Shown here: in pieces, positions 12,762-34,648 of the stretch
Layout of the letters: each line of letters opens with the position of its first letter
Position numbering within the stretch: position 1 is the stretch's first letter
Assembly: GCA_020057555.1 (NCBI GenBank)
Contig: JAGVFR010000005.1
Coordinates: 1 to 35,771, forward strand
Direction: 5' to 3'
Source: a bacterium
GTDB taxonomy: Bacteria; Patescibacteriota; Patescibacteriia; UBA9934; GWF2-40-263
Length of the DNA: 35,771 bases
The notes under the pieces: generated by a model
Database searches by the model: none
Told to the model about the DNA's origin: nothing
The model's input: only the letters and a program-made list of their open reading frames with translations
Position numbers and translations under genes: made by a program

Positions 12762-13075
12762 GAAAATTCCTCATCGACCGAGTGGAGAGATCTCTCGACT
12801 CGTTTAACTCGCTCGAGATGACAGAAGCATAGATTGCTTCGACCTTTGGTCTCGCAATGACGGAAATTCGAGATGACAAAAATGCTCTGTGTCATCTCGA
12901 GCGATCCCGCCATGGCGGGAGAGTCGAGAGATCTCTCCGCTCGTCGGCTGTTGGCCTCCTCGGTCGAGATGACAAAAGCAGAGATTGCTTCGACCTTTGG
13001 TCTCGCAATGACGGAAATTCGTGATCCTTCGCTTCGCTCAGGAGGACTGAAAAAGTAACCGCTCGGGATGACACA
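12762..13075. repeat. Cluster of dispersed repeats, non-coding
   Basis: Two 58-base direct copies (12813-12870 and 12964-13021) differ at two positions. Both contain the words GATTGCTTCGACC and CTCGCAATGACGG, related to the element at 543-641. Between them, GAGAGATCTCTCGACTCG words near 12783-12802 recur inverted near 12931-12952. The open frames here have no ribosome sites and appear to be made of the repeats. With a single 93-base gap between the two copies it is not a CRISPR array. I see no gene in this stretch. Confidence 0.75.
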
Positions 13076-23193: not shown

Positions 23194-23955
23194 TTATAGC
23201 AAACGAATCCAATTCTCAACAGTGAGTTCTTGTGCACGAATTTTTGGATTCAATTCAATTTGTTCGAGTCTTTTCGCAACATTCTGACCAAGATTTGATT
23301 TGAGTTGTTTTCGCTTGGATGAAAAGCCTTTTTTGGCAATAGAAATTACTTTTTCAGGATCTTTACCTTGCAGAGCAGGATGACTTGGTTTGTACAGATC
23401 AAGTATAACAATCGCGGAATCAACTTTTGGAATCGGGCGAAACGCGCCGGCTTTCACAATTGTCACGCGCTCACACTTCGCATAAATCTGACAGACAATG
23501 GAAAGCAAACTCATTTTTGAAGGTTTGGCAGTTATGCGATCTGCAACTTCTTTTTGAACCATAAGAACCATCCGCGACGGCCTTGGTGATGTTGTTAAAA
23601 ATCGTTCAAGAATTGGTGAAGTGATGTTGTAGGGAATGTTGGAGATTAGTTTGAAAGAAAAGTCAATTAAGTCAATGGAGTCAATAAAGTCTTGGAGTTT
23701 AAGGATGTCACCGTGAATCAATTCAATACGATCGCCGAATCTTTTTTTGAGTGGTTCGATCATATCTTTGTCCATCTCAATCGCGATCACTCGCGCGCCA
23801 GCGTCAACAAGCGCTTGTGTTAGCGTCCCGGTTCCTGGACCAATTTCAAGAACTGTTTCGCCTTTTTCAATTTCAGCGGCTTGGATTATTTTTCGCAAAG
23901 CTGTTTCATCAACAAGAAAATTCTGACCAAATGATTTTTTCGCTCTAGGCAACAT
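23194..23955 (-). CDS. ksgA: 16S rRNA (adenine1518/1519-N6)-dimethyltransferase
   Basis: A 253-residue KsgA/RsmA enzyme that dimethylates two adjacent adenosines near the 3' end of 16S rRNA with SAM, late in small-subunit assembly. KKSFGQNFLVD at the start, VLEIGPGTGTLT (SAM motif I, near residue 37), VIAIEMD (motif II) and ISNIPYN (catalytic NLPY-type motif, here NIPY) are all present, with a normal C-terminal domain. I start at the ATG at 23955, which gives the standard MLPRAKKSFGQNF and overlaps the end of tsaC by 11 bases (translational coupling); the frame extends 13 codons further upstream without support. An oddity is IDSIDLID before the NIPY motif, encoded by a tandem run of ATTGACT-like units. 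Confidence 0.95.
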   Translation of the reverse strand: MLPRAKKSFGQNFLVDETALRKIIQAAEIEKGETVLEIGPGTGTLTQALVDAGARVIAIEMDKDMIEPLKKRFGDRIELIHGDILKLQDFIDSIDLIDFSFKLISNIPYNITSPILERFLTTSPRPSRMVLMVQKEVADRITAKPSKMSLLSIVCQIYAKCERVTIVKAGAFRPIPKVDSAIVILDLYKPSHPALQGKDPEKVISIAKKGFSSKRKQLKSNLGQNVAKRLEQIELNPKIRAQELTVENWIRLL

Positions 23956-24568
23956 ACAATACTGGTATTTCAATTTCTCCTTGACGCAAAACAACTATCT
24001 GTCCGTTTTTTTCAGCAATAATAGTTGATGGCTGACGCATTGGCAGAACCCCACCATCCAAATACAAATCTGGTTGCAAAAGTTGAGTGCTAAATTGTTT
24101 TTTTACTGACTCAATATCATAACAAGATGGTTCACCAGCGAGATTTGCTGATGTTGCAACAATCGGAACATCTAATTCTTGCGACAGCACATGAGCGATC
24201 GGGTGAGAACTTACACGAATTGCAATTGTATTGTCTTGAATCACAAGCGGCGACAATGTCGATTCTTTGCGAATTGGAGAAACAATAGTAAGTGGTCCAG
24301 GCCAAAGGTTAGAAATTAGTTGATCAAAAATCGGCGATAGCAAAGCATATTTTTCTGCCATTTTTAAATCAACAACGATAAGCGGCGGTGCTTTTCCTGT
24401 TGCGCGACCCTTGATAGCCATCACTTTTTCTATCGCGCGTGAATTTGTCGCATCTGCCGCGATTCCATAGGCAGTTTCTGTTGGAAACACAACAACTCCC
24501 CCTGCACGGAGTATTTCTACTGCTCTTCCTATTTCATCTTTTTTAAGTAAAAACATAGTTTGTGACAT
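23945..24568 (-). CDS. tsaC: Threonylcarbamoyl-AMP synthase (YrdC/Sua5 domain)
   Basis: A 207-residue enzyme that makes threonylcarbamoyl-AMP from threonine, bicarbonate and ATP for the t6A37 modification of tRNAs. VFPTETAYGIAADA, KGRATGKAPPLIV, LWPGPLTIV, IAIRVSSHPIA and PIVATSANLAGEPSC match the YrdC core. The frame stays open for 33 codons upstream to a TTG at 24667, but that extension runs through the long palindrome at 24576-24648 and overlaps the epimerase gene, so I start at the ATG at 24568 (24556 is an alternative). No ribosome site is clear. It lies between the epimerase and ksgA on one strand and overlaps ksgA by 11 bases. Confidence 0.93.
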   Translation of the reverse strand: MSQTMFLLKKDEIGRAVEILRAGGVVVFPTETAYGIAADATNSRAIEKVMAIKGRATGKAPPLIVVDLKMAEKYALLSPIFDQLISNLWPGPLTIVSPIRKESTLSPLVIQDNTIAIRVSSHPIAHVLSQELDVPIVATSANLAGEPSCYDIESVKKQFSTQLLQPDLYLDGGVLPMRQPSTIIAEKNGQIVVLRQGEIEIPVLYVA

Positions 24569-24575
24569 TATAAAA

Positions 24576-24648
24576 GGAGCGGTTCGTGCCATGTTGAAGG
24601 GAACAGCGGCGACAGTCCGATGGCCCGTAGACATGGCACAACCGCTCC
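24576..24648 (+). other. Long hairpin element, copy A, with a core shared with copy B near prfB
   Basis: The arms at 24576-24594 (GGAGCGGTTCGTGCCATGT) and 24631-24648 pair over 18 bp with one bulged C. The 36-base core between them contains GAAGGGAACA, CGGCGACAGTCCG and GGCCCGTAGA, which matches the core of copy B (26771-26847) when B is read on the minus strand. Copy A in that orientation is on the plus strand, opposite to tsaC, and overlaps the upstream extension of the tsaC frame. It may be a structured RNA, an antisense element or a palindromic mobile repeat. Confidence 0.6.
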
Positions 24649-24656
24649 GTGCTTTT

Positions 24657-25583
24657 TCATTTTCCAAACCACTTTACTGTTCTTTCCAATCCTTCATCCA
24701 ATTTTACTTTCGGTTTCCATTCCAAAATCTCTCGCGCTTTGCGCGCATCAAGCGCTGAACGCATAACTTCTCCAACTCCCGCTGGTTCATGACGTGCTGG
24801 AAGTTGCGCACGAGTAAGTTTTTGTAATTTTTGAAAAATCGTATTTACATCAGTTTCTTTTCCAGTGCCAATGTTAAAAACACCTATTACTTTTTTATTC
24901 ATCGCCGCAATGTTCGCGGCAACAACATCTTCAACATACACATAATCTCTTGTTTGTTTTCCTGTTCCAAAAATCGTTGACGGTTTTCCGTTTAACATTT
25001 GATTGGTAAAAATAGAAATCACTCCTGCCTCCCCTTTTGCATTTTGTCGTGGCCCATACACATTCGCGTAACGAAGCGCTATATATGAAACCCCATGCAC
25101 CATATAAGCAAAATGAAAATACATTTCCGCGGAGCGTTTTGAAATCGCGTATGGAGACGATGGTTCTGGAATGATTTTTTCAGACCATGGCAATCTCGCG
25201 GATTCTGGATACATTGGTCCGCCGCTTGAACAAAAAATAATTTTTTTAACATTGATCTGTCCAGCAACATGCGCGATCGTTAAACTTCCCAAAATATTTG
25301 TTTTTGCGTCATTGAGCGGATCTTTAACTGAATCCCGTAAATTGATTTGAGCGGCAGTGTGAAAAATCACATCTGGTTTCACTCGCTTGAGATACTCAAC
25401 AAACTGCGGATTCAAAATAGACATCCGCGTAAAATGCGCGTTTGGATTAACATTCTTCGAGTTTCCAGTTGATAAATCATCAACAACATAAACTTTGATA
25501 TGTCGCCGAATGAGCGCGTCAACTATGTGTGAGCCGATAAACCCGGCGCCACCGGTCACTAATGCTATTGAATATTTTGGCAT
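24657..25583 (-). CDS. NAD-dependent sugar-nucleotide epimerase/dehydratase (GalE-like)
   Basis: A 308-residue extended short-chain dehydrogenase. LVTGGAGFIGSH is the NAD-binding glycine motif at the N-terminus, VDDLSTG binds the cofactor ribose, FHTAAQ follows, and the catalytic set is the Ser of CSSGGPMY with YAISK (YxxxK). RYANVYGPRQ and the C-terminal FNIGTG and LEWKPKVKLDEGL complete the family pattern. Members interconvert UDP-sugars such as UDP-glucose and UDP-galactose for surface glycans; the exact sugar cannot be read here. GGPMY replaces the more usual G.VYG after the Ser. Together with the O-antigen-ligase-like gene at 29463 it suggests surface polysaccharide synthesis. The stop is TGA. 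No ribosome site is evident. The gene follows prfB after a short repeat-rich gap. Confidence 0.88.
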   Translation of the reverse strand: MPKYSIALVTGGAGFIGSHIVDALIRRHIKVYVVDDLSTGNSKNVNPNAHFTRMSILNPQFVEYLKRVKPDVIFHTAAQINLRDSVKDPLNDAKTNILGSLTIAHVAGQINVKKIIFCSSGGPMYPESARLPWSEKIIPEPSSPYAISKRSAEMYFHFAYMVHGVSYIALRYANVYGPRQNAKGEAGVISIFTNQMLNGKPSTIFGTGKQTRDYVYVEDVVAANIAAMNKKVIGVFNIGTGKETDVNTIFQKLQKLTRAQLPARHEPAGVGEVMRSALDARKAREILEWKPKVKLDEGLERTVKWFGK

Positions 25584-25601
25584 ATTATTTTCATTTCCCT
25601 T

Positions 25602-25635
25602 TGCTACTCTGCTACTTTACTACTTTTCTACTCTC
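25602..25635. repeat. GTAGCA/AAGTAG microrepeat between prfB and the epimerase gene
   Basis: On the minus strand the stretch reads as successive GAGTAG, AAAGTAG and AAAGTAGCA units, and the stop codon of prfB (TAG) lies inside it. Similar runs occur at 31640-31757 and 34612-34636, so this is a recurrent low-complexity repeat at gene borders. Confidence 0.6.
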
Positions 25636-26756
25636 GATTCGCTTTTGCAAAACGATCCGAATCCGTAAGTTGCTTTCTCAAATACGCTTCCATAAACGGT
25701 TCAAGCTCACCATCAAGAACTGAAGTCGTATCTGACGTCTCATACTCTGTTCGGTGATCTTTTACCATTTTATACGGATGCAGAACATATGATCTGATTT
25801 GATTTCCCCATTCGGCCGATTGATATTCACCACGCAATTTTTTCTTTTCTTTTTCTTGTTCATCCAATTGAAGCTGAAAAAGTTTTGATTTCAAAATCTT
25901 CATTGCGGTTTCTTTGTTTTGCAACTGCGATCGTTCATTCTGACACGCGACTGAAATGTTTGTTGGAAGATGAACTATACGAACGGCTGAATAAGTTGTG
26001 TTTACACTTTGTCCACCTTTGCCACCTGCCATAAAAGTATCAATGCGCAAATCTTTTGGATCAATTTCTATTTCTTCAACTTCATCAAGTTCTGGTATTA
26101 CTTCAACAAGCGCGAAAGTTGTATGACGCATTTTTTCAGCATCAAACGGAGAAATTCGCACAAGACGATGAACACCGGCTTCGGATTTTAAATATCCATA
26201 AGCATAACGACCTTCAACACGCATTGTAATACTTTTAATTCCAACGTCTTCGGCTCGCGATTCATTCAAAATCGTAACTATCCAATCGCGACGTTCGGCA
26301 AAACGAATTAACATTCTAAACAACATTTCTGTCCAATCCTGCGCTTCTGTTCCACCAGAACCAGCATGAATCGAAACAATTGCAGGAAACTGATCATACG
26401 CGCCGGAAAAAAGCGTGGCAAATTCAAGTCGCGCAAATTTTCTCTCAAATATTTCAAACTTTTTTGCAACTTCATCATGAAGAGAATCATCTCCTTCACT
26501 TTGCGACAGAGTAACAACTTCCTCTAAATCTTTAACTTCTGTTAAAAACCCTTCCCAAATGAAAAGTTCATCTCGCAGTTCTGCTGCTTGTTTACTCACT
26601 TTGCGAGCGTTCTCACTATTATCCCAAAAACCCTGCTGGCCCATTTCAATCTCAAGACTGGCAAGCTGTATTTTTACAGTGTCGAGGTCAAAGGGACCTC
26701 CAGGTGTTCTCTGCTTTCACCCGGAGGGCTTGAATTTGATTGAGAAGTTCTTGCAT
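25628..26756 (-). CDS. prfB: Peptide chain release factor 2, with programmed +1 frameshift
   Basis: RF2 recognises UGA and UAA stops and releases the peptide. The gene is in two frames. An ATG at 26756 opens 22 codons ending WRSL, then TGA at 26690-26688. The site reads TGGAGG, TCC, CTT TGA C: an SD-like hexamer three bases before CTT-TGA, as in the classic prfB frameshift. A +1 shift continues with GAC CTC GAC and gives a 375-residue product. The rest has SPFDAEKMRHTTF (SPF anticodon-like motif) and AGGKGGQSVN (GGQ catalytic motif), with normal length. A 338-residue reading from an internal ATG at 26644 would lose the N-terminal part, so the frameshifted form is the real one. The leader carries a long hairpin (26771-26847) and an extended -10. 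RF2 level is therefore probably self-controlled by UGA read-through at the shift site. Confidence 0.93.
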
Positions 26757-26770
26757 AAAATTTGGCTGGA

Positions 26771-26847
26771 CACGAACGACTGTATCATGTCTCCGGGCCA
26801 ACGGACTCCTCGCCGTTGTTCCCTCCGACATGACACAGCCGTTCGTG
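26771..26847 (-). other. Long hairpin element, copy B, in the prfB leader
   Basis: The arms at 26771-26791 and 26827-26847 are 21 bases long. On the minus strand the two imperfect positions are G-U wobbles, so all 21 pairs form; on the plus strand they would be A-C mismatches. That favours a minus-strand RNA. The core has the sub-stems GGG/CCC and CAACGG/CCGTTG with purine-rich internal loops (GGA against GGA). It ends 14 bases before the prfB ATG at 26756, and the transcript predicted from the extended -10 at 26853-26861 would start with this hairpin. Its core matches copy A (24576-24648). Confidence 0.65.
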
Positions 26848-29310: not shown

Positions 29311-29332
29311 GTGGATGTAAAAGAAAACAAGG

Positions 29333-29450
29333 GTAGCCCACGGCTTTAGCCGTGGTATTAAAATTTGTGTCTCTGTTACGAAAAAACGCAACAAATCAAA
29401 GATAAATAAAAATGAGTTACAACACAGCCACGGCTAAAGCCGTGGGCTAC
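29333..29450. repeat. REP pair (REPIN-like) built of palindromic CCACGGCTTTAGCCGTGG
   Basis: GTAGCCCACGGC and the palindrome CCACGGCTTTAGCCGTGG fill 29333-29355, and the exact reverse complement fills 29428-29450 (23 bp each). The whole is flanked by identical 12-base words ACTGTCAAGTGG at 29303-29314 and 29459-29470. Such paired REP palindromes are commonly spread by REP-associated tyrosine transposases, none of which is in the window. It sits between groES and the O-antigen-ligase-like gene. Confidence 0.8.
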
Positions 29451-29462
29451 AACTATTTACTG

Positions 29463-31639: not shown

Positions 31640-31757
31640 AGAGTAGCAAAGTAGCAGTGTAGCAGTGTAGTAAAGGGAAAGCAGAACTCGTTAGAAGATT
31701 CGCTTGTGACTTCCCTTTTCTACTTTTCTACTTTGCTACTGCTACTTTACCACTCTT
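31640..31757. repeat. Imperfect palindrome of GTAGCAAAGTAGCAG units at the yidC 3' end
   Basis: The left arm (31640-31681) is made of AGTAGCAAAGTAGCAGTGTAGCAG-like units and the right arm (31710-31757) is its imperfect complement. The last residues of YidC (KVAVAK) and its TAG stop are encoded inside the right arm. It may act as a terminator-like stem on either strand. Related runs are at 25602-25635 and 34612-34636. Confidence 0.6.
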
Positions 31758-32465
31758 CTTCCTAAATACAACCGCTTGTTGAACAATTGAAAAAACTGTA
31801 ACCGTAACCCAGTAAAGTGCCAAACCACCAGGCAAACTCACACCAATAACAACTGTCATAACTGGCATGAAATACAACATGGACTTATTCATGGAAGCAA
31901 GCATTGTTTCATCTTTGGCTCCAGACGTTCCAGCAACTTGTTTTGGCGGACTCTTAGACATTAACATTTTCGTTTGAAAAAATTGAAAAATTCCAGCCAA
32001 AACCGCGAGCCAAATACTTGGAACAGAAAGATCTAAGAAGCCTAGAAAAAATTTGTGGATCTCTCCTGGATTTGGAACAAAAGTATAGAGCATTTCAAGT
32101 GCAGTTGGATCAAACCCTTTTAAAAGAACTTGATAAAGCGCGATCAAAATTGGAAATTGAATAAGAAGCGGAAGACAAGATGATAGAGGATTAACTTTTT
32201 CTTGTTGATACAAAGTCATCATTGCTTTTGCAAGTGCTTCTTTATTATCTTTGTGTGTCTTTTTTAGTTCTTCAATTTTTGGCTGAATCTCTTGCATGGC
32301 TTTCTGTGATTTCAACGAAGAATTCATGAACGGCCAAAGAATCAGTTTGATAATAAGCGTGAGTAAAATAATAGCGACTCCCATATCAGAACCGGAAATC
32401 GCGTCATAAAGAAAAACAAGCAAGTTGAAAAGTGGCTGAACAAGAACTAGTTGAAAAATGTTCAT
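31728..32465 (-). CDS. yidC: Membrane protein insertase YidC/Oxa1
   Basis: A 245-residue insertase of the short Gram-positive/Oxa1 type with no large N-terminal periplasmic domain. Five membrane segments are visible: an N-terminal one (residues ~9-22), VAIILLTLIIKLILWPF, PLLIQFPILIALYQVLL, a Phe/Trp-rich one and PGGLALYWVTVTVFSIVQQ. The cytoplasmic loop LKSQKAMQEIQPKIEELKKTHKDN is characteristic, with the Arg/Lys-bearing groove helix before it. It inserts and folds proteins in the membrane, alone or with SecYEG. The stop region lies in a microrepeat (31640-31757). nusA ends 29 bases upstream. Confidence 0.95.
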   Translation of the reverse strand: MNIFQLVLVQPLFNLLVFLYDAISGSDMGVAIILLTLIIKLILWPFMNSSLKSQKAMQEIQPKIEELKKTHKDNKEALAKAMMTLYQQEKVNPLSSCLPLLIQFPILIALYQVLLKGFDPTALEMLYTFVPNPGEIHKFFLGFLDLSVPSIWLAVLAGIFQFFQTKMLMSKSPPKQVAGTSGAKDETMLASMNKSMLYFMPVMTVVIGVSLPGGLALYWVTVTVFSIVQQAVVFRKKSGKVAVAK

Positions 32466-34611: not shown

Positions 34612-34636
34612 AGTAGAGTAGCAAAGTAGCAGAGGA
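34612..34636. repeat. GTAGCAAAGTAGCAG microrepeat before the membrane protein gene
   Basis: A third copy of the low-complexity run seen at 25602-25635 and 31640-31757 (AGTAGAGTAGCAAAGTAGCAGAG). It fills most of the 37-base gap between the membrane protein (34198-34611) and the methyltransferase gene. Confidence 0.55.
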
Positions 34637-34648
34637 GATCACTATAAG

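Follow-up and report, generated by a model that had tools for sequence, protein, structure and literature searches.

The hairpin beside tsaC in the window (the whole 35,771-nt stretch of DNA analysed) is one of a set of dispersed sequences in which a nearly fixed tip stands on stems of varying sequence. We consider it probable, at roughly two chances in three, that these sequences form a short (~76 nt) non-autonomous palindromic element family, spread through a few Uhrbacteria genomes, whose arms are kept by selection and template switching. They are dispersed bacterial palindromes in kind, like REP and RPE, yet they fail the REP, RPE and MITE tests on tag, stem and transposase.

Two hairpins with a common core and different arms

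Two copies of the element, A and B, were located in the window (Table 1). Copy A lies between the epimerase gene and tsaC, antisense to both, and copy B immediately precedes prfB in the sense orientation, with a gap of 14 nt between its end and the ATG. The words common to both are GAAGGGAACA / GGAGGGAACA and GGCCCGTAGAC / GGCCCGGAGAC, and the tip word reads CGGCGA-C-AGTCCG in copy A and CGGCGA-GG-AGTCCG in copy B, which is one base longer. The arms of copy A, GGAGCGGTT-c-GTGCCATGTT / GACATGGCACAACCGCTCC, pair with one bulge, and those of copy B, ACGAACGGCTGTGTCATGTC / GACATGATACAGTCGTTCGT, pair with the inclusion of two G.T pairs, the two sets of arms being unlike each other in sequence. Sequence comparison and folding thus bore out what the earlier note had seen here, namely shared core words between arms that differ but still pair. 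For the core pattern with up to three mismatches, the chance expectation in the window was 0.00.

Both copies were predicted to fold as a single long hairpin. The RNA folding energies were −46.0 kcal/mol for copy A and −50.0 kcal/mol for copy B, with the opposite strands weaker (−41.3 and −38.0 kcal/mol, respectively), and DNA folding gave the same order, the opposite strands again being weaker than the core strands. None of 200 dinucleotide shuffles was equally stable (z scores in Table 1). Near its start (26680–26757, minus strand), prfB retains the CTTTGA site for programmed frameshifting, with AGG ahead of it.

Table 1. Positions of the two hairpin copies, the parts of copy A and the neighbouring genes in the window.
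Feature	Position	Strand	Evidence	Remark
Hairpin element, copy A	24575..24648	core strand +	R1 77.6 bits; fold z −7.5 (RNA), −7.1 (DNA)	
Copy A, 5' arm, GGAGCGGTTcGTGCCATGTT	24576..24595	+	sequence and fold	one base bulged
Copy A, conserved 34-nt core/tip, GAA-GGG-AA-CAGCGGC-GACA-GTCCGATG-G-CCC-GTA	24596..24629	+		
Copy A, 3' arm, GACATGGCACAACCGCTCC	24630..24648	+	sequence and fold	
Hairpin element, copy B	26772..26847	core strand −	R1 91.9 bits; fold z −9.4 (RNA), −7.4 (DNA)	
tsaC (L-threonylcarbamoyladenylate synthase)	23945..24568	−	TIGR00057, 160.6 bits, above cut-off	downstream neighbour of copy A
NAD-dependent epimerase/dehydratase	24657..25583	−	PF01370, E 1.3e-57	upstream neighbour of copy A
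prfB (release factor 2)	25628..26757	−	TIGR00020, 460.9 bits for 25628–26644	downstream neighbour of copy B

Copy number and distribution

A genome-wide search for the core with flexible arms, as called for in the earlier note, was carried out with covariance models, the first built from 17 copies and the second from 100. It found 27 copies in the window's 849-kb genome, not only the two in the window, and 110 across seven Uhrbacteria-group genomes. BLAST with copy A as the query located 17 places in the genome and the exact core 18, with none for a reversed control pattern. Three species of the window's genus carried 27 (the window's genome), 27 and 16 copies (the last in G001), a sister genus carried 23 (G014) and 15 (G026; 14 with the 17-copy model), and two further genera (G018 and G035) had one copy each, in tgt only. 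These copies in the genome and its relatives, together with the fixed core and covarying arms described below, supported the earlier suggestion of a dispersed element.

No copies were found by covariance model in the other 35 of the 42 genomes of the family, by the 100-copy model in 30 genomes from other families of the order, or, under strict candidate limits, outside the genus in samples of the class and phylum; the viral contigs, phages and plasmids searched also contained no element. Apart from three chance hits, all matches in an exact-pattern scan of ~85,000 species came from Uhrbacteria and Parcubacteria bins. The off-lineage hits (Bacteroidales, Microbacterium and Caldilineaceae) were rejected as elements because the arms were missing, and about three chance hits were estimated for the 257 Gb. 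In an Rfam search of the window, only a tRNA scored above the gathering score, and the sub-threshold matches of the element were, with few exceptions, to miRNA hairpins of eukaryotes or viruses.

Anatomy of the element

The ~76-nt unit consists of an outer stem of 18–20 bp, often with a single bulge, under a nearly fixed tip of 34–35 nt. Directly above the stem, 5'-C GNA G-3' stands opposite 5'-C GNA G-3' (a GNA/GNA internal loop), followed by GGG/CCC and then by AA opposite G. The upper tip comprises CA/TG, a variable R-Y pair, CGG/CCG, a bulged T and a C-G-closed apical loop of GANA or GANNA. At the R-Y position, copies tipped with GANNA have a pair, and those tipped with GANA usually have a G.A mismatch. 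The unpaired tip was nearly invariant in 100 copies from two genera. The arm ends are not conserved, with no GTAG at the foot and no CGTC at the end, and some arms are similar to common GTCATTGCGAG dispersed repeats. At L163, L180, L181:7916 and L198, an extra hairpin or insert, such as CCTGCCAAAGGCAGG, is nested in the core.

Covariation and strand polarity

In an alignment made with MAFFT, for which structure was not used, 90.7% of the cells were paired, compared with 33–43% when partners were slid. Both sides had changed in 18 of the 29 pairs, and double-changed cells numbered 83 against 27.5 in shuffles, so that the covariation test proposed in advance found the paired arms changing together. 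The 100-copy alignment, which was fitted to the structure, contained 643 double-changed cells against 160 in shuffles, with both-sided changes in all 20 arm pairs and also in the GGG/CCC stem, where G-C to T-A exchanges occurred. At orthologous sites with the same orientation, 15 double changes in arm pairs were paired and one was broken; of the single changes, 17 made or removed a G.T, 7 made or removed an A.C and 6 led to other mismatches.

For the mismatch counts, the 5' arm of every copy was aligned with the reverse-complemented 3' arm of that copy, at equal mismatch costs. Read on the core strand, the window's genus showed 85 G.T vs 25 A.C mismatches (28:6, 26:11 and 31:8 by species), and the ratio was 62:19 when shared sites were dropped, with 33 copies having an excess of G.T and 2 an excess of A.C. 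No G.T bias was observed in G014 (17 G.T vs 18 A.C). A double-stranded cruciform would give no such bias, whereas RNA or single-stranded DNA of the core strand would, which argues that one single strand folds. The earlier note had posed a structured RNA against a self-propagating palindrome; a single folding strand, as RNA or ssDNA, is upheld by the excess of G.T over A.C, but the two are not mutually exclusive.

When the mismatches were polarised by the nearest relative, G.T had arisen from C>T in 47 cases and from A>G in 26, and A.C from G>A in 8 and from T>C in 13. Since C>T was the more frequent origin of G.T, the bias could stem in part from strand-biased deamination. Deamination of C on an exposed strand may add to the G.T count but would not yield the excess of A>G. 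A replication-strand bias was also sought: local GC skew tracked gene orientation, and third-position skew gave no consistent signal.

Placement relative to genes

With genes called by a simple codon-usage caller, the 103 mapped copies were distributed as 75 between co-directional genes, 15 in convergent and 6 in divergent gaps, 5 within genes and 2 at contig ends. Orientation relative to genes, which had also been proposed for counting, ran both ways among the 75 (34 sense and 41 antisense), and a bias towards gene 3' ends was not significant (p 0.15). The earlier note had further suggested that copy A, if an RNA, is antisense to the tsaC leader; this specific role is unsupported, because orientation to neighbours is random and the core has been inverted in place between species. 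Copy A is shared by three of the genus's species (the window's genome, G001 and G002) at one site and in one orientation, pointing to an old insertion and no recent jump, and between species a pair in it has changed from C-G to T-A (GTGCCATG/CATGGCAC vs GTGTCATG/CATGACAC). It is probably an old resident of the gap upstream of tsaC, not a tsaC regulator.

More generally, the copies might serve the host as a structured RNA, binding an RNA-binding protein or RNase and acting on the mRNA that carries them through processing, stability or termination. Such a function would agree with the strand-specific G.T bias and the strong covariation, with the resemblance of the GNRA-like GANA/GANNA tip and the GNA/GNA internal loop to protein-bound RNAs, and with convergent gaps being somewhat more frequent than divergent ones (15:6). 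The likeness to boxB and GNRA-like pentaloop RNA hairpins lies in the C-G-closed GANNA pentaloop or GANA tetraloop; the element differs from them in having more conserved internal loops below the tip and no known protein partner. We nevertheless regard a host function as improbable, given the equal use of sense and antisense orientations (34:41), the in-place inversion of the core between species, the many unshared sites, the lack of an Rfam family and the 35 of 42 family genomes without the element.

The five intragenic copies all sit in tgt (tRNA guanosine(34) transglycosylase), inserted antisense and in frame between ..WAKRCK and LFGIVQGG, in G000, G001, G014, G018 and G035; the copy in G026 is degenerate. 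Constrained by the reading frame, the tgt copies are never inverted. At L233–L262, L201 and L202, this loop holds the present element, GTCATTGCGAG-type or GTCATYCTGAG-type palindromes, CCCTCC palindromes, tandem runs or nothing, and simple runs were also found within the loop in some relatives. The occurrence of unlike in-frame repeats, or of none, in the same loop across the family marks it as a permissive landing site for several repeat families. A single origin for the tgt copies was unsupported by the weakly resolved tgt tree; G018 and G035 stand apart from the two main genera.

Site history and probable template switching

The counterpart in G001 of the copy at L153:4001 (G000) is an empty site with directly joined flanks, where arms and core are all missing, indicating that the mobile unit is the whole hairpin; no clear target-site duplication was observed at this clean empty site. 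Arms without a core were absent from the DNA examined, apart from two remnants adjoining known copies, which indicates that arms travel with the core. Many sites are unshared between species; several copies are old and shared, which counts against inferring current mobility.

The core was found inverted between species at L149/L178, L150/L164:15472 and L205:4001, L155/L181:4001, and L158:4001/L212:241, with the flanks, and mostly the outer arms too, still aligning. These are 4 of the 11 intergenic sites in the genus at which, in our reading, a single insertion is clearly shared. Two more inverted pairs, copy B of the window/L168:4001 and L147:2314/L177, were left out of the count as they may be separate insertions. 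In published work, homogenised arms together with an inverted spacer are what marks template switching between inverted repeats (PMC8604942), a process that can also maintain RNA hairpins (PMC8794818); both features were seen here, in the 15 paired double changes and the 4 clear core inversions. The elements resemble hairpins maintained by template switching (PMC8794818, PMC8604942) in their compensatory multi-base arm changes and spacer inversion; they differ in forming a dispersed multi-copy family with a structured 34-nt spacer, the published spacer inversions being substitutions of 2–5 bp (PMC8604942).

The in-place inversions and the arm homogenisation would equally fit dead repeats under no selection, the arms of which are paired solely through replication template switching (PMC8604942, PMC8794818). 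We consider this explanation quite unlikely, since template switching removes G.T and A.C equally, yet G.T is in excess by about 3:1, and since it does not preserve the unpaired tip, which is nearly invariant in the 100 copies. Because template switching alone would account neither for the kept tip nor for the excess of G.T, we infer a selective component acting on the fold of one strand.

Candidate enzymes and proposed mechanism

Of the five many-copy genomes, G000 and G002 encode Y1/RAYT transposases (PF01797), whereas G001, G014 and G026 had no match. The occurrence of reverse transcriptases (PF00078) did not track the element, and the genes beside the copies were mostly housekeeping genes, with no recurrent family and no adjoining transposase. 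None of these (RAYT, reverse transcriptase or a recurrent neighbour gene) tracks the element, and no mobilising enzyme was found. In this the element is like CGTC repeats and RPEs (PMC3733652); no dedicated transposase is known for CGTC repeats (PMC3733652; PMC10969869).

Movement of a REP-type element by a RAYT (Y1 HUH) transposase would suit a short, intergenic, multi-copy hairpin with single-strand polarity, and some genomes of the family do encode Y1 transposases. This idea is already weakened by the missing GTAG or CGTC tag, the unconserved arms, the lack of a PF01797 match in three genomes that carry 16, 23 and 15 copies, and the absence of any transposase beside the copies, and it appears very unlikely. 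That a bare core inserts in the middle of palindromes already in place, with differing arms as different targets, is scarcely credible: certain arms do look like the common GTCATTGCGAG dispersed repeats, but core-less arms are essentially absent in the DNA examined and the empty site lacks arms and core alike.

For the mobile palindrome family that we favour, the folded tip, as ssDNA or RNA, would be recognised by some trans-acting enzyme, and new copies would settle where harm is small, in intergenic DNA or in the permissive tgt loop. Resident arms may stay paired partly because poorly paired copies would cease to be copied, while replication template switching between the arms may copy one arm onto the other and occasionally invert the loop between them. 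Selection on the fold of one strand would most simply reflect that the element can spread only if it is recognised. A more specific version, which we put forward tentatively and at less than even odds, is a structure-defined mobile hairpin, whose structured tip would be recognised as one strand (ssDNA or RNA) by a non-RAYT enzyme that allows any pairing stem sequence.

Comparison with known palindromic repeats

In the definitions used, GTAG at the palindrome foot marks REP and CGTC at one end marks RPE/CGTC repeats (PMC3733652). The element shares with REP/REPIN and their RAYT (TnpA-REP) the short hairpins, single-strand polarity, intergenic location and tens of copies. In contrast to them, it has no GTAG foot, no conserved stem and no cognate Y1 transposase, RAYT being absent from 3 of the 5 many-copy genomes. 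With RPE and CGTC repeats it has in common a dispersal of palindromes both between genes and, in tgt, in frame within them; it differs in lacking the CGTC end, in its length (76 vs ~150 nt), in its fixed tip on a free stem and in being nearly all intergenic, with only 5 of 103 copies within genes. A MITE would have conserved terminal inverted repeats matching transposase ends and a target-site duplication, whereas the arms here are variable and no clear duplication was seen; nor was there an Rfam match over the gathering score that would mark a known RNA.

What usually identifies REP and RPE palindromes is an end tag or a stem of conserved sequence; in the present family the tip alone is fixed and the stem may vary, while the arms covary strongly, wobble pairs are biased to one strand and cores are seen inverted in place. 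The family is therefore of interest as a natural data set for separating fold selection from template-switch homogenisation, and as a lead towards a mobilising activity not yet known, in ultra-small CPR genomes. It also cautions that, when a bacterial hairpin is a repeated one, its covariation does not have to imply a host riboregulator.

Other repeats in the window and upstream of prfB

Further repeats and palindromes were noted in the window at 12779–13025 and 29322–29461 (a TCGCAATGACGG-type repeat pair and a CCACGGCTTTAGCCGTGG inverted repeat), and 8-bp units like CTACTTTG / GTAGCAAA form short runs in intergenic gaps at 25601–25629, 31640–31759 and 34615–34637. Upstream of prfB, G001 and G002 (L207:1490–1870 and L168:3910–4480) carry another long conserved hairpin, AAGAGACAGTTACGGGACACTTTTTCTGCC...GGCCAAGAAAAAGTCGTCCCGTCTGTCTCT, which is absent in the window's genome. 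In the same region of G002, a stretch of ~38 bp is duplicated and flanks that genome's copy of the element on both sides.
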